In this document: positions 18,356 through 34,717 of the stretch, one piece after another
How the letters are laid out: the number at the start of each line of letters is the position of its first letter
How positions within the stretch are numbered: the first letter of the stretch is position 1
Source: Candidatus Melainabacteria bacterium
Lineage (GTDB): Bacteria > Cyanobacteriota > Vampirovibrionia > 2-02-FULL-35-15
Reading direction: 5' to 3'
Length of the DNA stretch: 59,447 nt
Assembly (NCBI GenBank): GCA_016201905.1
Contig: JACQBQ010000022.1
Location: forward strand, 1 to 59,447
Program-made: the position numbers and the translations under genes
Notes under the pieces: model-generated
Databases searched by the model: none
What the model was told of the DNA's origin: nothing
Seen by the model: the letters and a program-made list of their open reading frames with translations, nothing else

Positions 18356-19846
18356 ATGAGTACCATTAGAATTATTGCTTCAGCCTTTGTAAATGCAGGT
18401 TTATTTCTAGCTCAGAGCGAACTCAAAGCAACACAATCTGCTCAAAACGCAACAAAGCCAGTGCCTGCTCAAGCTGCCAAGCTTGATACTGGATTTAATA
18501 AAGAAAAAGTTAAAAAAATGATTGGTGATCTTGATAGTGGTTTATTTGCCACAAGAGAAAAAGCTACATCAGAACTTGTAATCGGACTTGCATTATCAAA
18601 TGATTTATTTCCTTACGTACTAGATGAGTATCCTAAAGCCTCTCTTGAAGTACAACGCAGGCTTGACCGCATGATAAAAAAGATTATTGGTCAAAGAGGT
18701 ATTTATCTAGCTAGTGATGAGAAAACCAATCTAAATACATTTAAATATTTAGCTGAGCATGGTGGTTATCCTATTAAGATAAGACTGCTTTTTAACAAAG
18801 GTTTTACTGATGAGAACAGCATGAGTTTAATTCTCAATGAACTGCCAGATGATGTGTTAGGACATTTAGTAAGTGTAACTAATCGTGCATTAGTTCTGGA
18901 TGTTTTAAGAAAAAACGAGATTGAGAAAAAAATTCACTTTGAAAACTATCTTGCAAAAAATCCAAGCATTACTGAAGAAACCATGGAAAAATTTGCTAAT
19001 AGTGAAAATGTTGTTGTCAGATTTAGTGTTGCAGCAAATAGAAGCCTCACAAAAGAACTACTTGAAAAGCTAGCTCAGGATAAAGATTCCAATGTTAGAG
19101 CAGCTGTTGCAGCAAATAGAAGTACCAAAAAAGAATTACTTGAAAAATTACTTCAAGATGAATGTCCTGAAGTTGTACAAGCAGCTGCAGCAAATAAAAA
19201 CTTACCTAAAGAACTACTTGAACAATTAGCAGAATCTAAAAGACTCTATATTAGATTAGGTATTGCAGCAAATAAAAATACTCGTAAAGAAATACTTGAA
19301 AAACTAATTCAGGACGAATGCTCTGAAGTTATACAAGCAGTGCTAGCAAATGAAAACTTGTCTAAAGAACTACTTGAACAATTAGCAAAATCTGAAAGAC
19401 TCTATATTAGATTAGGTGTTGCAGCAAATAAAAATACTCGTAAAGAAATACTTGAAAAATTACTTCAGGACAAATGTCCTGAAATTAGGCAAGAAGCTGC
19501 GGGAAATGAAAGCTTACCTAAAGAGCTCCTTGAACAATTAGCAGAATCTACAGATCGCTATATTAAAGCTGGTATTGCACAAAATAAAAACACTTCAAAA
19601 ATAAAAGGATTGCTTGAAAAACTAGCTAGAGATGTGGCTCCTTTTGTTAGATATCATGTTATATATAATAATAATGTTACTTTAGAATTGCTCATAGAGC
19701 TTGGGACATATGATAATAATAACCATAACAGGAACGTAGCTAGATTTATGCTAAATAAGTGCTGGTCTAATTATTTAACAGGTTTAATTGATTCAAGTCT
19801 AAATCAAGAAAGATTTCTTAGATTTTTACCTTTTCATTTATTTTAG
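18356..19846 (+). CDS. Exported LRV/HEAT-like repeat protein, 496 aa
   Basis: The N-terminus looks like a signal peptide (about 1-25: [16 protein letters not shown]). From about residue 195 to 430 there are at least eight near-identical repeats of about 24 residues, of the form [20 protein letters not shown], with consensus N-(K/R)-x-(T/L)-xKE-(L/I)LE-(K/Q)L. This is the leucine-rich repeat variant (LRV) pattern. DNA identity between neighbouring repeats is high, indicating recent expansion. The last 29 bases overlap the 3' end of convergent clpB. It is probably a binding protein outside the cytoplasm. Confidence 0.7.
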
Positions 19847-22565: not shown

Positions 22566-24203
22566 TTAATCAGCTAAAGCTTTACCCAAACCACTGATTC
22601 CAGCAAGTTTTTTAAATAAGTTATGTTCTTCGCTATCCTCGCAAGAAGCAGTAAGCTTCTCTAATAAAAGCTGATTCATCCTTCCTTCATCCAATAACCA
22701 GGCACTTTCTAAAATATCTAATGCATTTGCTTTAATATTTTTTCTTATTTCTGGTGTTTTACCTTCTCCAAATGCCGCCCACTTCTCAAATGTCTCAAGA
22801 CCTATATAATCAACTAAATCACAAGACAAATTTCTTCTTTCACTAGGACTTAATTGGAACCAAATTATGCCTTTATCATTTCTAAAAATCAATGAAAGAT
22901 CAATGTTTGCAAGATTCAAATAAGCCTGCTTTAAATCTCTTTCTTCATGAAAAGTTTTAGACAATACACCTAATAAAACTTTAGAGTATTTATTGTCAAA
23001 TTTTGCCAACTGCGTTATGGAGGCAAGTGGAATCGACAGTTTATTTTCTCTGACTTGTTTAACTATTACATCAACTAACGCCCTCATGCCATCTACTCCA
23101 CAATTATTTGCAAGCTCATAGCATGCACTACCAGTCAAAAATTGATCTGTATCATTCTTATTATATATAAATTCTTTTAAAGTCTGCGCAGCATTTTCAC
23201 GAGCAGAATGTGCGTATTGAGATGTAGCATAAAATGACTTATATCTTTGCTTATCATCTTCGCCATTGCTATTATTATTTACAAGTTGATCTCTAAATAT
23301 TTCCATTGCATCTTTTAAAGAGTACTCTCTTAAAAGTTTTGAAACCTCATCATAAATATTTTTATTAGCTGATTTCTTATACATGGCTTTAAGGTGCCTA
23401 AGCGGTATAGGTGATGAATCTTTTACAAAGGATTCATCACCTTTTAATATATGAATTATTTCTAATGCAACTTTTTGATTTTTTTCTTTTTCTGCTATCA
23501 GAGAATCGTCTTCACAACAGTCTTTACAAGAAGCTTTATGTCCTAACACCAGCATATCCAACACCTCATACGGATCTCTTATTACTATTAAAGATCTTGC
23601 AAAGTCATTAATCTTAGTTATCTTATTAAAATCTATGGTATTCAGCAACTTTTCAAAATCTTTTTTCTTAATTGCAGTTAAAAATTGAATACAGAAATCG
23701 TGGTTATTCTCAGCATTTTCAAAACCATTTCTTTTTTCTAGTGCAGGCAAAAAATATTCATCTAATAATTCATCTTGTCTTTCTAAAGAATAAAATGTTT
23801 TAAGCAATATTACTTTCTCTTCAATATTGTTAGATTTTTTAAGAACACCTTTTAATAAAGAAATTAAATCCAGTCCACCTTTTGAAAATACAGGAACTAA
23901 GTCTTCTATTGTGTCTTTTAAAGAAGAATCAAATTTTAATGCGTCTCTAAAACATTCATCTGATGACATATCAAGTTTTTTTCTTTGCCATCGTATGAAT
24001 TTTTGCAGTCCCTCCAGCGGAGATATAACTGCTCTGAAGTTTTTAGAAAGCTTGGGATAAGAAGACATATTAAGAGCTTCAACAACTGGCTCATCTTTTG
24101 CCTTTTCTTTAGCAGCATTGGAAACAGTAGTATTATTTTCAGTTAAATGTGCAGATACTTGCACATTAGGACTACCAGCCCCATCAGTTCTTCTTATATC
24201 CAT
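22566..24203 (-). CDS. Hypothetical alpha-helical protein, 545 aa
   Basis: The N-terminal 50 residues are Ser/Thr/Asn-rich (NVQVSAHLTENNTTVSN) and probably disordered; the rest is helical with scattered HEAT-like pairs (QTLKEFIYNKNDTDQFLTGSACYELANNC, GMRALVDVIVKQVREN). A Cys cluster SCKDCCEDD lies near residue 227. It has no signal peptide and no TM segment. It sits between clpB and the divergent aprA with its own promoter space. I recognise no family. The layout (disordered head plus helical solenoid) resembles the other solenoid proteins in this window, suggesting a lineage-specific scaffold. Confidence 0.6.
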   Translation of the reverse strand: MDIRRTDGAGSPNVQVSAHLTENNTTVSNAAKEKAKDEPVVEALNMSSYPKLSKNFRAVISPLEGLQKFIRWQRKKLDMSSDECFRDALKFDSSLKDTIEDLVPVFSKGGLDLISLLKGVLKKSNNIEEKVILLKTFYSLERQDELLDEYFLPALEKRNGFENAENNHDFCIQFLTAIKKKDFEKLLNTIDFNKITKINDFARSLIVIRDPYEVLDMLVLGHKASCKDCCEDDSLIAEKEKNQKVALEIIHILKGDESFVKDSSPIPLRHLKAMYKKSANKNIYDEVSKLLREYSLKDAMEIFRDQLVNNNSNGEDDKQRYKSFYATSQYAHSARENAAQTLKEFIYNKNDTDQFLTGSACYELANNCGVDGMRALVDVIVKQVRENKLSIPLASITQLAKFDNKYSKVLLGVLSKTFHEERDLKQAYLNLANIDLSLIFRNDKGIIWFQLSPSERRNLSCDLVDYIGLETFEKWAAFGEGKTPEIRKNIKANALDILESAWLLDEGRMNQLLLEKLTASCEDSEEHNLFKKLAGISGLGKALAD

Positions 24204-24296: not shown

Positions 24297-26012
24297 ATGC
24301 AGAATCTAATCGACAAAATTAAAATTGAAAAACTTAAAACAGACTTCTTAATAATAGGTGCTGGAGCAGCAGGATGCTTTGCAGCATATGAAGCAAAAAG
24401 ATTAAATCCAAATATTGATATTTTAATTTTAGAAAAAGCTCATATAGCCAGAAGCGGATGTTTAGCAGCTGGAGTAAATGCAATAAATGCATATATTACA
24501 CCCGGACAATCACCGGAAAGTTTTCTTGAATATGTAAAAAAAGATTCTATGGACTTAATCCGGGAAGATCTTGTTTACAGCATTGCAAAAGAAGTAAATA
24601 ACGTTGTAAATCTGCTTGAAGAGTGGGGGCTTCCCATACCAAAAGATGAAAATGGGCAGCCATATGTCCGTGGACGCGGATCGATAATTGTTCAGGGTGA
24701 AAGAGTAAAGCCAATTATTGCACAAGCTACAAAAAATACAAAAGCAAAAATTTTAAATCGTGTTGTTGTAACAAATCTAATTAAAAATAAAAACAAAGTC
24801 TGCGGAGCATTTGGATTTGGAGTACGGGATGGGAAATTTTATGTCATTCAGGCTAAAGCTGTACTGGTCGCAACAGGGGGTGCAAGCGGCATTTACAAAC
24901 CAAACAATGAAGGTGAAGCAAAGCATAAAATCTGGTACTCACCATTTAATACTGGAGCTGGCTATGCAATAGGTATAAGAGCCGGTGCAGAGATGACCAC
25001 CTTTGAAATGCGATATGTAAGCATGAGAATAAAAGATCTCATGGCACCCACAGGTGCTGTTGCTCAAGGTGTAAAAGCAAAGCAGGTCAATGCACTAGGT
25101 GAAAGATATTTAGAAGAGAGATATGTGTATCTGGGCGGAACATCGATGCCAACAGCCATGAGGCTCTGGGCAACACTGCAGGAAAACATTGAAGGTAGAG
25201 GACCCTGCTACTTAGACACAACTCATCTAACAAGAGAACAAGCGGAAAGATTACAAGCATACTATCTTCACATGACACCGGGCTTGACGCTATACTGGGG
25301 AGCTCGTGGTACAAAGCCAGATACAGACCCTCCAGAAATTGTTGGAACTGAACCTTACATTGTAGGGGGACATGCACAGGCAGGTTACTGGATAGATATA
25401 AATAGAATGTCCACGCTGGAAAACTTATATGCTGCAGGAGATGTGGCTGGCGGCGCACCCAAAAAATACCTATCAGGTGCAGCAGCAGAAGGAATGATAG
25501 CAGCTAGAGAAATAGTTTCAAAGCTAAAAAGTATAAATGAAGAGCAAGTCTATGAAAAAGATATTAAAGATGAAGTAAAAAGAGTTTTTTCACACCTAGA
25601 AAAGAAAAATATAGAAATCTTACCCGATGAATTAGAGCTTAGAATGCAAAAAATCATGGATGATTATGCAGGAGGGATTTCAAGTGGATATATTTTAAAT
25701 GAACAAAAATTGCTTAAAGCAAGAAAATATATAAAAGAATTAAAACAGGAAGCTAACAATTTATATGCTATTAATCCGCATGAGCTTATGAAATGTCATG
25801 AAGTAATAGACAGGCTTGACGTTGCAAGTGTACTTATAGAACATCTTTTACACAGAAAAGAAACCAGATGGCCCATCTATCAATCAAGAGCAGATTATCC
25901 TGAGCGTGATGATAAAAACTGGTTAAAGTTTGTGAATTCTGTGTATGATCAAACTAAAGATGAAATAAAAATTCTTGAAAGGCCATGTAAAAAGTTAGAA
26001 GCAGTAAAATAA
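24297..26012 (+). CDS. aprA: Adenylylsulfate reductase alpha subunit-like flavoprotein
   Basis: The 571-residue protein follows AprA along its length: FAD motif LIIGAGAAGCFAAYEA, RSGCLAAGVNAINAYI (AprA has SGAVAQGLSAIN), LIREDLVYSIAKEVNNVVNLLEEWGLPI, KFYVIQAKAVLVATGGA, GIRAGAEMTTFEMRYVSMRIKD (equivalent to the substrate Arg region) and EPYIVGGHAQAGYWID (with the active-site His). It is shorter than classical AprA (about 620-660), lacking C-terminal insertions. The expected reaction is AMP + sulfite to APS, or the reverse. It overlaps aprB by one base (TAATG). No sat or qmo genes are in the window. A related fumarate-reductase-like function is the main alternative, but the AprB partner argues against it. 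Confidence 0.8.
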   Translation: MQNLIDKIKIEKLKTDFLIIGAGAAGCFAAYEAKRLNPNIDILILEKAHIARSGCLAAGVNAINAYITPGQSPESFLEYVKKDSMDLIREDLVYSIAKEVNNVVNLLEEWGLPIPKDENGQPYVRGRGSIIVQGERVKPIIAQATKNTKAKILNRVVVTNLIKNKNKVCGAFGFGVRDGKFYVIQAKAVLVATGGASGIYKPNNEGEAKHKIWYSPFNTGAGYAIGIRAGAEMTTFEMRYVSMRIKDLMAPTGAVAQGVKAKQVNALGERYLEERYVYLGGTSMPTAMRLWATLQENIEGRGPCYLDTTHLTREQAERLQAYYLHMTPGLTLYWGARGTKPDTDPPEIVGTEPYIVGGHAQAGYWIDINRMSTLENLYAAGDVAGGAPKKYLSGAAAEGMIAAREIVSKLKSINEEQVYEKDIKDEVKRVFSHLEKKNIEILPDELELRMQKIMDDYAGGISSGYILNEQKLLKARKYIKELKQEANNLYAINPHELMKCHEVIDRLDVASVLIEHLLHRKETRWPIYQSRADYPERDDKNWLKFVNSVYDQTKDEIKILERPCKKLEAVK

Positions 26013-26434
26013 TGGGAATTTACATCGATCAAAATCTATGCAACAGCTGCGGCTATCCTCAGTCAGAAACACCATGTAACATGGCATGCCCTGGAGATTT
26101 AATTTTCATGCAATTAAATGGTAAAGCCCAAATTACATCTAATGCAGAGTGCTGGGACTGTGCAGCATGTATTAAAATCTGCCCACAACAAGCAATTGAC
26201 ATAAGACTACCTTTTGAAATTGTCGGAAAAGAAGGAACACTAAAAGCAAGAGCCTACCGTGAAAAAACAATCTGGACTGTAAAAGATGAAAAAGGAAATG
26301 AACAGATCTTTGAAACTCCAGCCAGAAATGATGCAAGCCTAGAAACATTAATTAATCCTGAAGAATTTTCAGATACTATTGATTCATATAAAGGTATTTC
26401 AAAGAGTTTTGTGGACCTGGGATTAGATATCTAG
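26012..26434 (+). CDS. aprB: Adenylylsulfate reductase beta subunit-like ferredoxin
   Basis: The 140-residue protein has two [4Fe-4S] motifs arranged as in AprB: CNSCGYPQSETPCNMACP (C-x2-C-x8-C-x3-CP, the long first motif typical of AprB) and CWDCAACIKICP. A non-cluster tail follows with YREKTIWTVKDEKGNEQIFETPAR, matching the AprB tail that wraps AprA. It passes electrons between the AprA flavin and a membrane partner. The 1-base overlap with aprA implies coupled translation and a fixed ratio. Confidence 0.85.
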   Translation: MGIYIDQNLCNSCGYPQSETPCNMACPGDLIFMQLNGKAQITSNAECWDCAACIKICPQQAIDIRLPFEIVGKEGTLKARAYREKTIWTVKDEKGNEQIFETPARNDASLETLINPEEFSDTIDSYKGISKSFVDLGLDI

Positions 26435-26911: not shown

Positions 26912-27340
26912 TTATGTTACAGCAGCCTTTGCTGCTTCCGGTGCTGGTAAATTGTTCAGGTCTTCCTCAAATTTACTAACCTTCTCCATAAATTTCTTAT
27001 AATCACATTTTGCCAACCAATAACCCCTGACTTTATTTTTATCAACAGCCTTTTTAATGTTTGGTGGTCTTAAGCCTAAAAGCCTATCCTGACACCATTT
27101 ATTTCCCTCGCGAAAGTGGCAGTCACCGATTTGGCACCCCATTACAAAAACACCGTCAGCACCTTGTTTAAAGCCTTCTTCAATCATTATTGGCTGAATC
27201 ATACCAGAGCAAACCATTTCAACAATTGCTACATTGTCCTTGTCTTTAAGTTTGTTGTTCTTAATATGCTTTTTCAGATCTACGCTTCGTTCGCAGACAA
27301 TCCCAAGTACCTTTTTCTTTTTTTTATTTTGCTGCGTCAT
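26912..27340 (-). CDS. mvhD: MvhD/HdrA-associated iron-sulfur protein
   Basis: The 142-residue protein matches the MvhD family (methyl-viologen-reducing hydrogenase delta subunit): ICERS, MVCSGMIQPIMIEEGFKQGADGVFVMGCQIGDCHFREGN (family pattern C-x-GR...GADGV-x-V-x-GC-x-x-GDCHY-x-x-GN), then CQDR and CDYKKF. The family carries a [2Fe-2S] cluster and moves electrons between a flavin disulfide/hydrogenase module and a partner; it also forms the C-terminal part of QmoB. Here there is no HdrA or hydrogenase nearby; the upstream neighbour is the cytochrome b-ferredoxin, so it may dock there. Confidence 0.85.
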   Translation of the reverse strand: MTQQNKKKKKVLGIVCERSVDLKKHIKNNKLKDKDNVAIVEMVCSGMIQPIMIEEGFKQGADGVFVMGCQIGDCHFREGNKWCQDRLLGLRPPNIKKAVDKNKVRGYWLAKCDYKKFMEKVSKFEEDLNNLPAPEAAKAAVT

Positions 27341-27358
27341 ATTTTATCCTTACCACAA

Positions 27359-27387
27359 GAGGGACAGATCAAGACCTGCCCCTACAG
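27359..27387. repeat. 27-bp stem repeat just after the cytochrome b-ferredoxin stop
   Basis: The element GGGACAGATC/...ACCTGCCCCTACAG ends two bases from the stop codon at 27390. It has the same family and orientation as the copy after mvhD. Confidence 0.7.
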
Positions 27388-27389
27388 TA

Positions 27390-28520
27390 CTAAACTGTTA
27401 TCGGCTCCTTTAAAACATCCCCTATTTTTGCAATGATTTCTTTAGAATGTTTTTGTGGTAAATCAATTGCTTTAAATGCACAAGCACCCACACAAAGTCC
27501 ACATTCTGCACAGCGAGCATCAATTACAATAGCCAGCTGTTTGTATTTAGGATGATCTGTTCTTGGCACCATATAAATAGCTTCATAAGGGCAATCCTTA
27601 GCACATAAAGTACACCCAACACAATTATCCAGTGAAACAGTAGCTGGTGATTTTTGCTCATCAACTATTAAAAATGGTACAAGAAGTAAAATTGCAACTG
27701 CTATAAAAACAATTGTCCAAACAACCATTGCCGGAATATTTGAGAACAATGGGAAAATCCACAAATAAAACCAGTCAACCGGAAACTCTTTTGGAGTTTC
27801 AGTTAAAACAGCAGGTTTACCACTAACTACAGGTATAAGACCTGCTGGAATAATAATTGTAGCCATTAATAGAAGACCTAATCCTAATGGCACATCAGTA
27901 GCTGGTCTTGAGATTCTAAGATAATGAAGCCAGAGTAAATATAAAAGAAAAAATGAAATGCCTACATGTAGGAAAAATGACATAGCCATTGTATAGTGAG
28001 TGATCACTTCGCCATTTATAAATAGCCCTGCAAGTGAAGTACCTACAAGCGGTATAGCTTTTAGCGCATCAGTCATCATTAAAGTTATCATATAAGAACG
28101 CTCATCCCATACGAGAATATAGCCAGTAATGCCAATTACAAACATGCAAAGGAAAAGTGCTACCCCAGAGTACCAGGCAATCCAGCGATATTTTCTATAC
28201 CTGTCTGTAAAATAAACTCTTAGTGCATGCAAAACCACTGTAATCATCATTGCATCTGCAGCATAGCGATGCATACCTCTTACTACACCACCAAAAGGGA
28301 TTTTTGTAGAAATATAATTTACTGAAATATAAGCACTGTCAAGGGTGGGCTGGTAATAAGCAAAAAGCAAAAGACCAGTAACAAACAAGGTCCACATAAA
28401 AAGATTTGGTACAGCACCATGATAGTAAAACGGATTATATTGCTGACTAAAAACTTTGTTTAGCAGCTTCTCAAAAGCTATTGTTAGTACTTGTAATTTG
28501 TCTAGTGTTTTTCTGTACAT
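27390..28520 (-). CDS. Cytochrome b fused to a 2[4Fe-4S] ferredoxin domain
   Basis: Residues about 35-225 are a cytochrome b N-terminal four-helix domain with all four haem ligands at the canonical 14-residue spacing (H84/H98 and H185/H199). Further TM segments follow, with PVDWFYLWIF (about 250-260) in the Qo PEWY-like position. Residues about 296-360 are a dicluster ferredoxin: CVGCTLCAKDCP and CAECGLCVGACA. The fusion links quinone chemistry directly to iron-sulfur electron transfer, unlike an ordinary bc1 cytochrome b. It sits immediately before mvhD. I infer that it exchanges electrons between quinone and MvhD/AprAB. Confidence 0.85.
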   Translation of the reverse strand: MYRKTLDKLQVLTIAFEKLLNKVFSQQYNPFYYHGAVPNLFMWTLFVTGLLLFAYYQPTLDSAYISVNYISTKIPFGGVVRGMHRYAADAMMITVVLHALRVYFTDRYRKYRWIAWYSGVALFLCMFVIGITGYILVWDERSYMITLMMTDALKAIPLVGTSLAGLFINGEVITHYTMAMSFFLHVGISFFLLYLLWLHYLRISRPATDVPLGLGLLLMATIIIPAGLIPVVSGKPAVLTETPKEFPVDWFYLWIFPLFSNIPAMVVWTIVFIAVAILLLVPFLIVDEQKSPATVSLDNCVGCTLCAKDCPYEAIYMVPRTDHPKYKQLAIVIDARCAECGLCVGACAFKAIDLPQKHSKEIIAKIGDVLKEPITV

Positions 28521-28542: not shown

Positions 28543-28761
28543 TTACCTCCTTGGTTTCTCCTTTGCCGGGTTTGTCTCTTCATTGTCGGCATTTCTAGTT
28601 AAAACAAGAAATGAAATTGCAGCCATTGTTGCAAATATACCAAAATAAATCGCAAATGTTAGATCCTTATAACTAAGTTCAGATGTTGCTAAAAGATATA
28701 ACATAACAAGTGATCCTGCAGCACTTGCAAATCCAATCAATAATTGAAAAAGGAACATCAT
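28543..28761 (-). CDS. Small two-TM protein of the cytochrome operon, 72 aa
   Basis: Two TM segments (MMFLFQLLIGFASAAGSLVMLYLL and LTFAIYFGIFATMAAISFLVL) are followed by a polar tail (NADNEETNPAKEKPRR). Its ATG overlaps the stop of the preceding 91-residue gene (ATGA), so translation is coupled. It lies between the two cytochrome b genes and is probably an accessory subunit or assembly factor. I recognise no family. Confidence 0.65.
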   Translation of the reverse strand: MMFLFQLLIGFASAAGSLVMLYLLATSELSYKDLTFAIYFGIFATMAAISFLVLTRNADNEETNPAKEKPRR

Positions 28762-29033
28762 TTGTGTATTTTCCTCACAGAGAGCTTACTATATAGCCAT
28801 TCATAGAAACCAAACTTCATTTTTAAATTATCTTTTTTCTTTTCATCTACGTAAATCCAGTAACCCATTAAAAAAAGTGTAAGTAGAAAAACTAAAGCTG
28901 AAACAATAGAAATACCTAGATGAGCAAATGTCATTTCAGATGAAATAAGTCTGCCTGCCTCAAAAAATTCTGACAGTGCAAAAACTGATATAAAAAATAC
29001 AATGAGTCTAAAAGGTTTTATATTTTTCAACAT
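28758..29033 (-). CDS. Small two-TM protein of the cytochrome operon, 91 aa
   Basis: Two TM segments (RLIVFFISVFALSEFFEA; HLGISIVSALVFLLTLFLMGYWIYV) and a basic, aromatic tail (KFGFYEWLYSKLSVRKIHK). It overlaps the end of the upstream cytochrome b by one base (TAATG) and the start of the next gene by four, so all three are translationally coupled. It is probably a structural subunit of the same membrane complex. The family is not recognised. Confidence 0.65.
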   Translation of the reverse strand: MLKNIKPFRLIVFFISVFALSEFFEAGRLISSEMTFAHLGISIVSALVFLLTLFLMGYWIYVDEKKKDNLKMKFGFYEWLYSKLSVRKIHK

Positions 29034-30370
29034 TATGCAGCTTTCTCCTGAGTTTGAACTATCCTCTTCCTAATAAGCAGGTGCCACCCATAAGCAATGG
29101 TGGCTGGAATCATGCAAACTCCTACACCAACTAATTGCTGCTTTACTGTAATCCATCCATTTAATAAAGTTGGGAATGACCAATATAAAACAAAAAGTGG
29201 ACAAGCTACATAAGCTATAAAATCCATAATTGCAACAGGTAATTTTTCAGGTCTTTCAATTTTATGATTAATGTACTGCCATACAACACCAATAGCAATG
29301 ATTATCCAGGTTCCCGTTCTCCATATGGGCGGATCTCTATGAATATTTGCAATATTTGCAATTATTAATCCTGAAAAAACTAAAAATTGAATGAAGCCCA
29401 TTATAGTTACCATTAAAAAAATCGGTCTTTTTGAAAGTCGTGTCTCAGGTCCAAGATCAAAAAATGGAAGAGCAATTACAGTTACAGGCACAAGCACGGT
29501 AAGTGCTGTTGCCCAGACCGGTTCCATATATTTTAAAAATTGATAAAGTGCTAAAAAATACCAGTCAGAAAGAATTGGCAAAGGAGTAACACTGGGATCT
29601 GCTCTATGGCCAATTTGAGCAGGCAAAATAATTGCAGTAATAAATACCATTGCAGTTGGAACAGATGCTAACTTCCAGGAAATATTTAATCTTTTAAATC
29701 CAGTCTTATAAATGTAAAGCTCATAAGCTATGAGTGCAAGCAAAGTAAATGCAGTATGAAATGCATAAAACCTTGTCATCGTTGCTTGTCCAATTGAGCT
29801 ACCACCTAAAAGGATTTGAGAGGTATTAACTCCAATGTGTGTTGGTCCAAGAATATAAAATTGTTCTACGTAAGTAGGGAATGTTGCAAAAACTTTTGTT
29901 GCCCAGAATGCTCTTTGATTCCAGATTAGAAGATAACCAGTTAGACCAGAATACATTCCAAAGAGCAGTGTAATTAAAGCAATGGCTATATTAAATTCAC
30001 GATTTGGTTTATAGTCGCATGCAAGAAACATTCTATAAAGCCTCATCGTTGCTGCAATTATAACTGCATCTGCACCATATTTATGAACCCCTCTGGTAAT
30101 TGCCCCGAAAGGAATTTCTGTTTGTATTTTTACAATTGAATCATATGCTTCGCTAATAGAAGGAATGTAAATTGCCATAAGTAGACAACCAGAAACTATT
30201 GTTACCATCCAAAAGAGCCATACTAATGATCCAAGCGTATACCAGGGATTTGTTTTTGCTTTATCTACATAGTGCTCATCAAAAATATCAATGCCATTAA
30301 TGTGATCAATCACCCATTTTTTGGCGATTTCAAATTGTTGTTTCCCGATTTCTTTTAGTTTATCGATCAT
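29033..30370 (-). CDS. Cytochrome b (bc-type), lacking one pair of haem ligands
   Basis: The 445-residue protein has the full cytochrome b plan (b6 plus subunit-IV-like halves, at least eight TM) and a Qo motif LPILSDWYFLALYQ. In the haem helices the first histidines are present (H96 in RGVHKYGADA; H205 in FYAFHTAF), but the +14 positions are Arg110 and Tyr219 instead of His. By the canonical scheme this keeps the bL pair and loses the bH pair. The start at 30370 has AGG five bases upstream. It follows the Rieske gene, separated by an interspersed repeat. Confidence 0.85.
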   Translation of the reverse strand: MIDKLKEIGKQQFEIAKKWVIDHINGIDIFDEHYVDKAKTNPWYTLGSLVWLFWMVTIVSGCLLMAIYIPSISEAYDSIVKIQTEIPFGAITRGVHKYGADAVIIAATMRLYRMFLACDYKPNREFNIAIALITLLFGMYSGLTGYLLIWNQRAFWATKVFATFPTYVEQFYILGPTHIGVNTSQILLGGSSIGQATMTRFYAFHTAFTLLALIAYELYIYKTGFKRLNISWKLASVPTAMVFITAIILPAQIGHRADPSVTPLPILSDWYFLALYQFLKYMEPVWATALTVLVPVTVIALPFFDLGPETRLSKRPIFLMVTIMGFIQFLVFSGLIIANIANIHRDPPIWRTGTWIIIAIGVVWQYINHKIERPEKLPVAIMDFIAYVACPLFVLYWSFPTLLNGWITVKQQLVGVGVCMIPATIAYGWHLLIRKRIVQTQEKAA

Positions 30371-30506: not shown

Positions 30507-31073
30507 TTATGCTACTCCTCCTGTTTCAAGATCAGTTATAACCAACTGATTATTTTCAACCTTGTAAACAAACTTCCTTGGTGGCCTTGGTGCCGGACCA
30601 GAAACTACTTTTCCTTCTTTTTGAATATCAAAAACGCTTAAGTGGCATGGACATGCAAAAACCGGTCCATCTGGGCGATAGTTATAACCTTTAGCTACAT
30701 CATCAGGGTTTGGGACAAAATTAAACACACAACCTAAATGTGGACATATTCTGCTATAAACTGCAAAATCTCCACTTGGAAGTTTTATAGCAAAACCTGG
30801 AATATCTCTGATTTGTGTACCGATAGCTGTATATTCTTTGTTTACCTGTATAAAATTAAATGCCTGAGCATCAAATGGTTTTGTGAACAAAGAGAGATCA
30901 AATATTACAGGTTTTACAGATTTTGGCAGATCAGGACCTTGCATATAATTTAGAGGTTTAATCGTTGGCTTTAAAAACCTCATAAAAGGTGACAACGCTG
31001 CAAGTAATGTCCCCAGGACTGGAACAGCTAAAAACCCTTTTAATAAATCCCGTCTTGTTGTCTCCATATCCAT
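30507..31073 (-). CDS. Rieske iron-sulfur protein
   Basis: The product has a twin-arginine-like N-terminus (TTRRDLLKGFL) with one TM anchor, then the Rieske fold with ligands CPHLGC and CPCHLSVFD, and the Pro-rich loop SGPAPRPP. It takes electrons from quinol at the Qo site and gives them to cytochrome c. The ATG at 31073 (188 residues) is preferred because AAGAGG lies 11-12 bases upstream; an upstream GTG would overlap that SD. Position between dihaem cytochrome c and cytochrome b marks a bc-type complex. Confidence 0.9.
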   Translation of the reverse strand: MDMETTRRDLLKGFLAVPVLGTLLAALSPFMRFLKPTIKPLNYMQGPDLPKSVKPVIFDLSLFTKPFDAQAFNFIQVNKEYTAIGTQIRDIPGFAIKLPSGDFAVYSRICPHLGCVFNFVPNPDDVAKGYNYRPDGPVFACPCHLSVFDIQKEGKVVSGPAPRPPRKFVYKVENNQLVITDLETGGVA

Positions 31074-31097
31074 AATTATTATCACCTCTTAATTTTA

Positions 31098-31910
31098 TTA
31101 TTTATCCTTCTCTGTATTTTCTTCTTCTTTCTTACTTTCTTTTGCTTCAAACAATTCTTTTTCTCTTAAAATATCCTTTTCAGTGCTGTAACCAAACTGT
31201 CTAATAAACTTAACAAGCTCCCATCTGAACTTTTCATCAAACTCAAAATGCTTATCCTTATCAACCCTTCCTGCCCATGGCGGCATTGCAGTCCAGGGTA
31301 TTCCATTAGAAACTTCATCAAAAAGTTTCTCATCTGTTTTTTCATAAAGCCTGTCAAACTGATTAAAGTTTGCTGGGGGTGGATTTAAAAAGTAATGAAT
31401 TGGACCATCAGCAAATCCTCTTGTACCATGACAAACCGCACAGTTTGAACCAAACTTGACTTTTACATCTTCAACATCCTTTGGCAAACCAAAAAGTGTA
31501 TAACGGACATACATCACTATGTCCCATCTTTCTTGTCTGGTTAATTTTTCTCTAAATGACTCATGCTTATCATCATTAGTAATCACTTTAAATAATTGAG
31601 ATGGTGGAACACTGTTTATATATTTCAGAGTAAACTCATTTTTATTTGCTTCACTTCCAAAACTATGGCAAGCTGAACAGTTCTGGGTAAATAACTGCTT
31701 CCCTTCTACTACAGATGGGTCCTTCGTAGGGTATGCAAAATCTTCTTTAGTAGCTTTTTCATTAATTAATGGTTTCTTCTCAGAAGGCAAGTTAACTTTT
31801 TTCAAATTCAAGGTCGATTGGCAGGCAGAAATTAGAAATCCAATTAGCACAATGCACATGACAAGTGTTACTGTCTTTAATATTTCTGCTATTTGTTTTT
31901 TATCACTCAT
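31098..31910 (-). CDS. Dihaem cytochrome c lipoprotein
   Basis: The N-terminus is a lipoprotein signal peptide (VTLVMCIVLIGFLISAC, lipobox LISAC). Two c-type haem motifs follow, CSACH and CAVCH, each in a cytochrome c fold with likely Met ligands downstream (MPPWAGR). A charged tail ends the protein (KESKKEEENTEKDK). The ATG at 31910 (270 residues) is preferred over the upstream TTG. Its place next to the Rieske gene suggests it replaces cytochrome c1/f and passes electrons to the cbb3 oxidase. Confidence 0.85.
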   Translation of the reverse strand: MSDKKQIAEILKTVTLVMCIVLIGFLISACQSTLNLKKVNLPSEKKPLINEKATKEDFAYPTKDPSVVEGKQLFTQNCSACHSFGSEANKNEFTLKYINSVPPSQLFKVITNDDKHESFREKLTRQERWDIVMYVRYTLFGLPKDVEDVKVKFGSNCAVCHGTRGFADGPIHYFLNPPPANFNQFDRLYEKTDEKLFDEVSNGIPWTAMPPWAGRVDKDKHFEFDEKFRWELVKFIRQFGYSTEKDILREKELFEAKESKKEEENTEKDK

Positions 31911-31933
31911 TTTCTTTCTAACTACCCTCAATC

Positions 31934-31961: not shown

Positions 31962-32138
31962 TTAATATCCAAAAAACGGTACCCATGAAATTAAAGCCCA
32001 AAGAAAAACTAAAAAGAATAAGACTAGTAAAAAAAGAGGTGGCTTATGTTCTCCCATCCGATATTCTTCTGGTTTTGTAACTTGAGGAACTTGACAAAGC
32101 GGTTCATATTCGTGTTTTTGTCCTACGTTATCAGCCAT
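31962..32138 (-). CDS. 58-aa single-TM protein of the oxidase operon
   Basis: A soluble, acidic head (MADNVGQKHEYEPLCQVPQV) precedes one TM segment (FLLVLFFLVFLWALISWVPFF) at the C-terminus. The ATG at 32138 is chosen because AAGGAGG lies nine bases upstream; it overlaps the end of the ccoS-like gene by eight bases. It could serve as a membrane anchor or CcoP-like N-terminal piece, but similarity is too low to name it. Confidence 0.65.
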   Translation of the reverse strand: MADNVGQKHEYEPLCQVPQVTKPEEYRMGEHKPPLFLLVLFFLVFLWALISWVPFFGY

Positions 32139-32337
32139 TGTTATGAACCTCCTTCTTTGGACTATCTTCCAACATATCAAACTTGCTTGTTTCCAGATCT
32201 TTCATTTGACCTGATCTCATAGCCCAGATAAAAAATACCAGCGCAACCAGAAAATAAACTGTGCATAGCCAGGCAAACATGCCAAGACCAGGTCTTGTAA
32301 TTAAATCATGGATTACTTCTTGTGGTGTTACGTTCAT
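32131..32337 (-). CDS. ccoS: CcoS-like cbb3 oxidase maturation protein
   Basis: The 68-residue protein has one TM segment (MFAWLCTVYFLVALVFFIWA) followed by MRSGQMKDLETSKFDMLEDS, close to the CcoS hallmark W-A-x-RSGQ-x-DDLE-x-x-x-x-x-IL-x-DD. CcoS helps insert haem and copper in cbb3 oxidase. It usually sits in a separate ccoGHIS cluster; here it is directly after ccoO. The N-terminal 20 residues are longer than usual. A CcoQ role is the alternative. Confidence 0.65.
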   Translation of the reverse strand: MNVTPQEVIHDLITRPGLGMFAWLCTVYFLVALVFFIWAMRSGQMKDLETSKFDMLEDSPKKEVHNNG

Positions 32338-32344
32338 TTTTTAT

Positions 32345-33301
32345 TTAGTGCCCTCCTCCGGCACCTGGTGGTGGACCTTTTGTTTCAATAATCATTGCAG
32401 GCTTCTGGGAATTTAATTCTGCTGCTGAGATTTTTTGTTGCTCATTCCATCTTTCAGGATCCAGCGTCTCATATGCTTTTGGATAAACCTCATTTTCTCT
32501 TGGCAGTGTTTTTAAGAAAGCTACTAAATACCATCTTTGTTCCTCAGTTAATAACTTCCCCCACTGCGGCATTCTTGTCCCTGGTACACCTTCAGTAATT
32601 CTCCAGAACCATGTCACATCATCATAATCTTTAAAAAATGGTCTTGAAAAGTTCGCTGGTTTTTTAGCAATGGCTATAGCATTTGGTCCATTGCCTAATC
32701 CATGAGTACCATGGCAGGTAGCACAGTTTTGTTGAAATATTCCGCGACCAGCATTTGCAGCAGCTGAGCTGTCTACATTAACTTTTCTTTTTTCTAGAAC
32801 TTTTTCAAGTTCATCAGGGTGGTAAATGCGATTGTACTTAACAATTCTTTTTTTACCTAAAGACTGAACATAAGCAACAAGCGCTTTCATCTCTTCATCT
32901 TTCAGGTAAACAAACGGTGGCATAACTGAGCCTGGTGTTGTAGTTCGTGGATTTTTAAAGTGAGCAATATGCCATGCATCAGGATGCTTACCACCTTCAT
33001 TTGATAAATCCGGACCAGTTCTAATCGTGCCAAGAACATTTGGTGTCTCATATACATAGTCACCTGCCATAACAAGTGGTCCAAAATCCCTGTCCTGTGG
33101 TCTTACAAACTGACTGTGGCAATAAACGCAGCCTTCTCTCAGATAAATCTTTCTACCTTTTGCTTCAAGAGGCGTGTACTTAACTGCAAACTCTGATGGA
33201 GCAGGTTTAAAAATAAAATTTGGCAAAAGTACAGTAGAAAAAATGATCATGCTAAATGAAAGTAAAACAACAATGCCAGGAAGTAAATAATTCTTATTCA
33301 T
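32345..33301 (-). CDS. ccoO: CcoO-type monohaem subunit fused to a second cytochrome c domain
   Basis: After one TM anchor (about 5-28), residues 45-165 follow CcoO: GRKIYLREGCVYCHSQFVRPQDRDFGP and GTIRTGPDLSNEG...HIAHFKNPR. A second cytochrome c domain (about 195-290) follows with CATCHGTHGLGNGPNA and GTRMPQWGKLLTEEQRWYLVAFL, of the kind normally found in CcoP. So one 318-residue protein carries two c haems. No separate ccoP is seen in the operon. Confidence 0.85.
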   Translation of the reverse strand: MNKNYLLPGIVVLLSFSMIIFSTVLLPNFIFKPAPSEFAVKYTPLEAKGRKIYLREGCVYCHSQFVRPQDRDFGPLVMAGDYVYETPNVLGTIRTGPDLSNEGGKHPDAWHIAHFKNPRTTTPGSVMPPFVYLKDEEMKALVAYVQSLGKKRIVKYNRIYHPDELEKVLEKRKVNVDSSAAANAGRGIFQQNCATCHGTHGLGNGPNAIAIAKKPANFSRPFFKDYDDVTWFWRITEGVPGTRMPQWGKLLTEEQRWYLVAFLKTLPRENEVYPKAYETLDPERWNEQQKISAAELNSQKPAMIIETKGPPPGAGGGH

Positions 33302-33334: not shown

Positions 33335-34717
33335 CTAGCTTTTTGCTGGTGCCATTGCTGGTTCAACATCTGGTGAATCCAAAGGCTTAACAGCACGCAT
33401 TGTCTGAATTACATTTAAAAGAAATAAAACATTTCCAAACCACATTAAGCTTCCACCCATAGCACGTAAGATCCAGTAAGGAACCATTTCAATTCCCCAT
33501 TGGTTTACCGGGATGCCGGCATGCCAGCCAGCTGACTGAACTAATCCACCAATTGTCATGGATGAAAAGAAAATAAGAAATCCAATCAATGTAAGCCAGT
33601 AATGTGCTCTTGCTAAACCTACGCTGTAAAACTGCCTGTTTAAAATTCTTGGTAAAATATAATAAATAGCACCAAAATCAAAAAAAGTAAAAGTGCCAAG
33701 AAGCGCTACGTGTGCATGTCCAACCACCCATTGTGTAAAGTGAAGGTACCAGTTAATAGACCTTGTCGCTTGGAAAGGCCCTTGAATACAAGTAATAAAG
33801 TAAAAGAAAGCTCCTGTTAAAACAAAACGCAATGGCAAATTATTTGCAAGCTGCCACCAGTTCCCTTTCATTGTCATAAAAAAGTTGGTCAGAACAGTAA
33901 TAACCGGAATAACAAGAGCTACACTAAAAACTACTGCAAGTGCTTTTAACCACTCAGGCACAGGCGACTGCAAAATATGATGGGTACCGGTCGGTGCATA
34001 GAAAAATGCTATGGTCCAAAAGCCAAGCATTGAAAGGCTGTGACTCCAAAGTGGACGTCCGCTAAGCTTTGGAATCATATAGTATGCAATACCAACCCCA
34101 AGGGTTGTAAACCACATTCCTAAAATATTGTGTCCATAAAACCAGTTTACAATTCCATCATTCAATCCTTCTAATCTAACAAATGTTCTATTACCAATAA
34201 AATAAACTAGTGGCATCCAGAAAAAAGTACCAAGAATATACCAAAGACTGACATATAACTTTTTAACAGTTCTGGTTATTGCAGTCATATAAACAACATA
34301 TGAAAGTGTAAGCAGTCCAGTTAAAACCATTACATCTATTGGAACTGGGAACTCTGCATATTCGCGGCCTTCAGAGTAGCCATTTACAAGGCAAAGAATT
34401 CCACCAAAAATTGCAAGGTTCCAAACCAGGCAAACAAAGTTAGCAAGCTTTTCATTAAAAAGTTTTGAGCGGGTAAGCGTGGGCACTATATAAAGAACTA
34501 TTCCAATATTTGCCATTGAAAGCCAGCCAAAAGCTACAGTGTTTACGTGGGCTGGTCTTATCCGAGAAAATGTTAACCATGGAACGCCAGTACTTAAATC
34601 AGGAGCTGTAAACTCAATAGCCCCAGTTAAACCTAATGTCATTCCTATTACAAGCCAGAATACTGCTGTAACAATAAAATTCCTACTTGCTGAATTTTCT
34701 TTATCTGAAAAAAACAT
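33335..34717 (-). CDS. ccoN: cbb3-type cytochrome c oxidase subunit I
   Basis: The 460-residue polytopic protein has about 12 TM segments and the cbb3 metal ligands: RPAHVNTVAFGWL (haem b), NWFYGHNILGMWFT (CuB His), PTGTHHILQSPVP (CuB His-His), and WVVGHAHVALLGTF (two haem His). It reduces oxygen and pumps protons at the membrane. It is the first gene of the long minus-strand run. No strong SD is visible. The upstream 216 bases hold its promoter and then the end of the small TM cassette. Confidence 0.95.
   Translation of the reverse strand: MFFSDKENSASRNFIVTAVFWLVIGMTLGLTGAIEFTAPDLSTGVPWLTFSRIRPAHVNTVAFGWLSMANIGIVLYIVPTLTRSKLFNEKLANFVCLVWNLAIFGGILCLVNGYSEGREYAEFPVPIDVMVLTGLLTLSYVVYMTAITRTVKKLYVSLWYILGTFFWMPLVYFIGNRTFVRLEGLNDGIVNWFYGHNILGMWFTTLGVGIAYYMIPKLSGRPLWSHSLSMLGFWTIAFFYAPTGTHHILQSPVPEWLKALAVVFSVALVIPVITVLTNFFMTMKGNWWQLANNLPLRFVLTGAFFYFITCIQGPFQATRSINWYLHFTQWVVGHAHVALLGTFTFFDFGAIYYILPRILNRQFYSVGLARAHYWLTLIGFLIFFSSMTIGGLVQSAGWHAGIPVNQWGIEMVPYWILRAMGGSLMWFGNVLFLLNVIQTMRAVKPLDSPDVEPAMAPAKS

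Follow-up and report, generated by a model that had tools for sequence, protein, structure and literature searches.

A cytochrome b-ferredoxin and MvhD gene pair in a melainabacterial oxygen-respiration operon, a candidate cytosolic electron port of an asymmetric bc complex

The CytbFd-MvhD pair and its operon

The window analysed here is the whole 59,447-nt stretch of contig JACQBQ010000022.1 (positions 1-59,447, forward strand) from a Candidatus Melainabacteria bacterium (assembly GCA_016201905.1, 98.9% complete). It carries an oxygen-respiration operon on the minus strand, the last two genes of which, CytbFd and MvhD, are the subject of this work. The features are, by position:

26912..27340, minus strand: MvhD/FlpD-type [2Fe-2S] protein, 142 aa (PF02662 FlpD, 84.5 bits, cut-off 22.3)
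27390..28520, minus strand: CytbFd, 376 aa, a b6-type cytochrome b with petD-like helices, a degenerate Qo motif and a C-terminal 2x[4Fe-4S] domain
28543..28761, minus strand: 72-aa protein with two hydrophobic segments by hydropathy, conserved in the family by synteny, no Pfam match
28758..29033, minus strand: 91-aa protein with two hydrophobic segments by hydropathy, in most family loci by synteny, no Pfam or NCBIfam match
29033..30370, minus strand: Cytb, the Rieske-side cytochrome b (bL ligands H96/H205; R110 and Y219 at the bH ligand positions; SDWY Qo motif present)
30507..31085, minus strand: Rieske [2Fe-2S] protein (PF00355, 32.6 bits, cut-off 20.3; ligand motif in 28/28)
31098..31931, minus strand: diheme cytochrome c with an apparent lipoprotein signal (two CxxCH in 28/28)
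31962..32180, minus strand: small ORF with one hydrophobic segment, between CcoO-c and cytochrome c (synteny and hydropathy; similar ORF in two family loci)
32131..32337, minus strand: CcoS/FixS-like cbb3 maturation protein (PF03597, 30.6 bits, cut-off 23.1)
32345..33301, minus strand: CcoO fused to a second cytochrome c domain, a cbb3 subunit (PF02433, 131.6 bits, and cytochrome c domains)
33335..34717, minus strand: CcoN, cbb3-type oxidase catalytic subunit (PF00115, 291 bits; TIGR00780, 280 bits, below the curated cut-off of 583)

A first-pass annotation of the sequence had recognized a four-His cytochrome b fused to a dicluster ferredoxin, an MvhD-like [2Fe-2S] protein next to it, and an oxygen-respiring operon around both, and all three observations were borne out. 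Residues 22-203 of CytbFd match PF00033 Cytochrome_B (E 3e-30) and residues 299-351 match 4Fe-4S dicluster models; the heme ligands are H84/H98 in helix B and H185/H199 in helix D, and both CxxCxxCxxxC motifs are present in 57 of 58 homologues. The MvhD protein is free-standing, has Cys 16, 44, 69 and 74 invariant in the class alignment (28/28), and was the only FlpD recovered in a search of the whole genome. The cbb3, Rieske and cytochrome c genes lie upstream on the same strand as the pair. The ORF finder begins the Rieske frame at a GTG; an ATG at 31070 is another possible start.

We compared the locus with 11 genomes of the window's family, 19 genomes or loci from other families of its class, and 39 loci from other phyla (7 and 8 Acidobacteriota-, 14 Desulfobacterota- and 10 Nitrospirota-type), the phylum labels of these outside samples being taken from the seed genomes and not genome by genome. 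The order CcoN, CcoO-c, cytochrome c, Rieske, Cytb, CytbFd, MvhD characterizes the window's class and some Acidobacteriota, being common to the family loci, to 19/19 loci of the other class families and to the intact Acidobacteriota loci. CytbFd adjoins MvhD in every family locus having both genes and in all 19 loci from the other class families, and the two form a single polypeptide in Desulfobacterota-, Nitrospirota- and some Acidobacteriota-type loci. This conserved adjacency together with the fusions argues that the pairing is not due to chance, and the fusions show that the pair is one functional unit. The best matches of CytbFd are PF00033 b/b6 and PRK03735 cytochrome b6, and the profile searches reported no QmoC-type match; judged by these matches its cytochrome b is of the b6/petB type running into petD-like helices, not of the QmoC/HdrE type.

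The best relatives found were Candidatus Melainabacteria / Caenarcanales MAGs, and many genomes in the phylum sample have a petB of cyanobacterial type, which places the window in the sister lineage of the Cyanobacteria that does not photosynthesize. Melainabacterial complex III and IV genes have their nearest relatives outside the Cyanobacteria (PMC8235220), and two Melainabacteria genomes have been noted to carry petB and petC close to an O2 reductase (PMC6349859). The available part of the latter account does not describe a second cytochrome b, a ferredoxin, MvhD or missing bH ligands, in which the clusters there differ from the present one. A literature search, with most subscription journals outside its reach, found no earlier description of the arrangement, and a DNA search of plasmids gave no match.

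Two cytochromes b with complementary losses

A single cytochrome b with bL ligands, bH ligands and a Qo motif is absent from the operon, these features being split over Cytb and CytbFd. Among 34 aligned Cytb sequences (28 from the class and six from Acidobacteriota) the bL histidines are kept in 34/34 and the bH histidines in 0/34, and the Qo motif SDWY and the Rieske-docking motif T.TR[FY] are present in every sequence (34/34 each). All 28 class sequences combine the bL histidines with Arg or Lys plus Tyr at the two bH positions; the six Acidobacteriota proteins have likewise lost the bH histidines (Arg or Lys, and Arg) with the Qo motif intact. CytbFd has the converse pattern, four histidines in 58/58 and the Qo motif [PS][ED]WY in 0/58. 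The class sequences in that alignment have the four histidines (29/29), both ferredoxin motifs and a lost Qo motif, and the 29 further CytbFd-type proteins have four histidines and no Qo motif. The double histidine of helix B is found in 0/34 Cytb, in 58/58 CytbFd and in 26/26 cyanobacterial petB sequences, which served as controls. AlphaFold models of CytbFd and Cytb, built on shallow alignments, were unusable (mean pLDDT 37 and 38.5).

The simplest reading of these patterns is that Cytb and CytbFd would pair as a heterodimer having a single Qo site and a single bH. From their complementary losses one would expect a bc complex that is heterodimeric by nature and has, at bH, an iron-sulfur port to the cytosol. 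There is an engineered precedent, a bc1 complex with Qo dead in one half and a bH ligand mutated (H212N) in the other, which turns over via bL-bL transfer (PMC4330944). The likeness is close: one half supplies Qo and the other bH, and bL-bL alone joins them, although the engineered complex was made from ordinary cytochromes b whereas here we have diverged natural paralogues and a cytosolic iron-sulfur port. Compared with bc1 and b6f, the operon shares the Rieske protein, the PF00033 cytochrome b and, in Cytb, the bL ligands, the Qo motif and the Rieske-docking motif; it differs in having two cytochromes b with complementary losses, one of them with a ferredoxin domain and FlpD. It also differs from b6 where the heme ci cysteine would align, the residue there not being Cys.

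In such a heterodimer the Qo site of Cytb would be the sole place of quinol oxidation, with the Rieske protein docking on Cytb. The first electron would pass from the Rieske protein to the diheme cytochrome c, cbb3 and O2. As Cytb has no bH, the second electron would have to cross from the bL of Cytb to the bL of CytbFd, and then reach the bH of CytbFd, where a putative single quinone-reducing site would lie.

It also should be considered that the operon may encode two separate complexes, CytbFd with MvhD as a homodimeric quinone reductase and Cytb with the Rieske protein as a degenerate, bL-only quinol oxidase. The model for the former is the fused cytochrome b-ferredoxin-MvhD form, itself probably a homodimeric quinone reductase, which in most of the other-phyla loci has no Rieske or Cytb gene beside it; the genes can evidently function apart. 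However, the low-potential electron would have nowhere to go in a Cytb homodimer without bH, the losses in the two proteins are complementary, and in all examined loci that contain Cytb the order of Cytb and CytbFd is conserved. We regard two separate complexes as unlikely.

AprAB as a neighbour in one family

Downstream of the pair and convergent with it are two genes outside the class-wide operon, found in this family only:

24297..26012, plus strand: AprA-like alpha subunit, PAPS-reductase-like
26012..26434, plus strand: AprB-like 2x[4Fe-4S] beta subunit (best PDB match 8a8o_C; TIGR02060 below cut-off)

QmoABC comprises a membrane cytochrome b, ferredoxin domains and an MvhD domain, and is associated with AprAB. 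The first-pass annotation had accordingly proposed a Qmo-like electron exit, and a Qmo-like device dedicated to AprAB, working in either direction, does find some support within the family. AprAB lies beside MvhD in 8/8 family loci examined, with differing intervening genes, and the 9/11 family genomes that have MvhD are also those that have AprA. One exception is a contig that ends inside CytbFd; the other is a 98% complete genome (G077, the source of locus L049) without Cytb, MvhD, AprA and sulfite reductase, in which ATP sulfurylase and APS kinase are present. The order of ferredoxin and MvhD domains is also that of HdrA2: the ferredoxin domain of CytbFd and the MvhD protein match positions 569-642 and 643-772 of the NCBIfam model (NF040770), one directly after the other.

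The adjacency is by itself weak, however, since the genes flanking the locus on either side are also syntenic in the family. AprA was found in 0/19 genomes from other class families, all of which have the operon and MvhD, and near 0/39 loci from other phyla. AprAB as a general partner of the pair was therefore rejected, and what stands of the proposed link is the adjacency and shared presence in one family. The Qmo-like comparison itself finds little support: the cytochrome b belongs to the b/b6 family, FlpD is free and not part of a QmoB-type fusion, the genome has no other FlpD, and the linkage here is to an O2 reductase. HdrA2 and the MvhD-HdrA of methanogens (NF040770, PDB 5odc), for all the shared succession of ferredoxin and MvhD domains, differ in that the present proteins have no HdrA flavin domain and have a membrane cytochrome b attached. 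As the AprAB moreover resembles a PAPS reductase, we consider a dedicated Qmo-like device very improbable.

The enzyme is closest to the Methanothermococcus PAPS reductase of known structure, its best-scoring PDB match, with 713 bits vs 370 for the A. fulgidus APS reductase, and AprA scores 431 bits against TIGR02061, below the cut-off of 641.75. In the substrate loop, whose residues have been related to APS or PAPS use and to PAPS-reductase specificity (PMC10322725), the position of the APS-specific A. fulgidus Gln145 is Ser in 9/9 family members, and that of Methanothermococcus Lys120-Arg121-Ser122 is Arg-Gly-Ser in 9/9. ATP sulfurylase is encoded in 10/11 family genomes, sulfite reductase in 10/11 (one weak) and APS kinase in 11/11. 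The likeness to PAPS reductase, taken with these three enzymes, makes AprAB look assimilatory, which is its most likely role.

A 545-aa protein is encoded upstream of AprA in the window (22566-24203, minus strand), with diverged homologues (23-45% identity) beside AprA in several family loci.

The module in other phyla and the direction of electron flow

The fused module was seen in none of the first 18 FlpD-bearing genomes of other phyla, and the wider phylum samples had it. Three phylum-wide samples, each drawn around a seed MAG, gave full-length matches: 13/395 genomes for the deltaproteobacterial seed, 16/396 for the Bryobacteraceae seed and 20/395 for the Thermodesulfovibrio seed. The first two led us to reject a restriction of the arrangement to the window's lineage. 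Two architectures recur: the window's seven-gene operon, in seven Acidobacteriota-type loci, some ending at contig ends, and the fused cytochrome b-ferredoxin-MvhD gene beside COX1, usually COX2 and often SCO. In a tree all proteins of the first type fall on one branch with strong support, the bootstrap being not fully settled.

Oxidase genes lie near 53 of the 67 loci counted (25/28 class, 4/7 and 7/8 Acidobacteriota-, 10/14 Desulfobacterota- and 7/10 Nitrospirota-type), and several of the remaining loci end at contig ends. Across the four phyla sampled, the module's constant partner is a heme-copper O2 reductase. The first-pass annotation had set against itself the case of a consistent but unrelated partner and never AprAB; what we found is a consistent partner, the heme-copper oxidase, with AprAB present in one family.

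In four Nitrospirota-type loci a NuoF-like gene stands between two tandem, diverged fused cytochrome b-ferredoxin-MvhD genes:

L312:94-5608
L313:8352-13275
L314:7381-12907
L321:4797-10475

The NuoF-like protein has an FMN/NADH domain, an SLBB domain and a 4Fe-4S domain. At the junctions with the fused genes the frames overlap or nearly touch, start and stop codons overlapping at part of them. No such gene was seen in the loci examined of the window's class. Apart from an opposite-strand one in L312, no Rieske homologue lies beside the fused genes in the loci examined. The position of the NuoF-like gene between fused copies favours electron entry, and with most fused loci lacking a dedicated Rieske protein, a path from NADH to quinone to O2 is the most plausible one there. 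By homology with these relatives, which are distant, fused and without a dedicated Rieske protein or Cytb, entry would be the most likely direction for the window's pair as well.

Our working reading, held with moderate confidence, is that CytbFd and MvhD give an asymmetric, heterodimeric bc complex, which feeds the cbb3 oxidase, its electron port to the cytosol, with entry as the most likely direction. Going by b6/petD topology, the C-terminus of CytbFd, and with it the ferredoxin domain, should face the cytoplasm beside bH, in which position its two [4Fe-4S] clusters and the [2Fe-2S] cluster of MvhD would link bH to a soluble flavoprotein. Electrons from NADH or a ferredoxin-linked flavoprotein would then enter and help quinone reduction at CytbFd. 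Of the earlier suggestion of electron exchange with a flavin enzyme, the likely role between b hemes and a cytosolic flavoenzyme is retained and the Qmo-like, AprAB-directed exit is not.

The same heterodimer might also run outwards, as an O2-driven quinol bifurcator in which the low-potential Qo electron passes from bL to bL, bH, the ferredoxin domain, MvhD and a cytosolic acceptor, which in the window's family could be the adjacent PAPS-reductase-like AprAB. With bH lost from Cytb, electrons from Qo have to go into CytbFd, next to the ferredoxin domain; the Rieske, Cytb and CytbFd genes stay together, and the family matches AprAB in adjacency and presence and has ATP sulfurylase, APS kinase and sulfite reductase. 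On the other hand, transfer from bL to the n-side is opposed by the membrane potential, the 19 class relatives have no AprAB, and bifurcation is impossible in the fused relatives without a dedicated Rieske protein or a Qo-bearing partner, some of which carry the NuoF-like gene. Exit is the chief rival reading, and a doubtful one. Slightly less probable again is its fuller form, in which the bc complex would have given up part of the Q cycle, splitting Qo electrons between O2 and export via CytbFd and MvhD as low-potential reductant, to AprAB in the family.

If the proposed complex is real, it would be a natural form of the asymmetric bc complex that was engineered to prove bL-bL transfer, a path under dispute, and would put that path to a direct test in nature. 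The n-side heme of this bc complex would, in addition, be hard-wired to a cytosolic iron-sulfur port, in a non-photosynthetic sister lineage of the Cyanobacteria whose respiration may trade electrons directly with the cytoplasm via CytbFd and MvhD. A comparable input, from ferredoxin, has been proposed for b6f in cyclic electron flow. That the module recurs with O2 reductases across the four phyla sampled points to an overlooked connection from cytosolic carriers to oxygen.

Several further observations were made along the way. The tandem fused proteins around the NuoF-like gene possibly form another heterodimeric cytochrome b complex. Some fused proteins (L251-L254 and L256:8655-9302) have an extra C-terminal domain of ~175 aa with no Pfam match, the end of which is similar to a ~200-aa protein encoded on its own downstream of the shorter fusion. 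Two family genomes carry a cluster with a molybdopterin NarG/NXR-like protein of 1205-1212 aa (L049:4070-12253 and L050:8636-16790), which has its own Rieske-domain protein (~425 aa) and a 365-aa cytochrome b, a different pairing of Rieske protein and cytochrome b. The window also encodes, at 18356-19846 on the plus strand, a 496-aa protein of tandem leucine-rich repeat-variant-like units.
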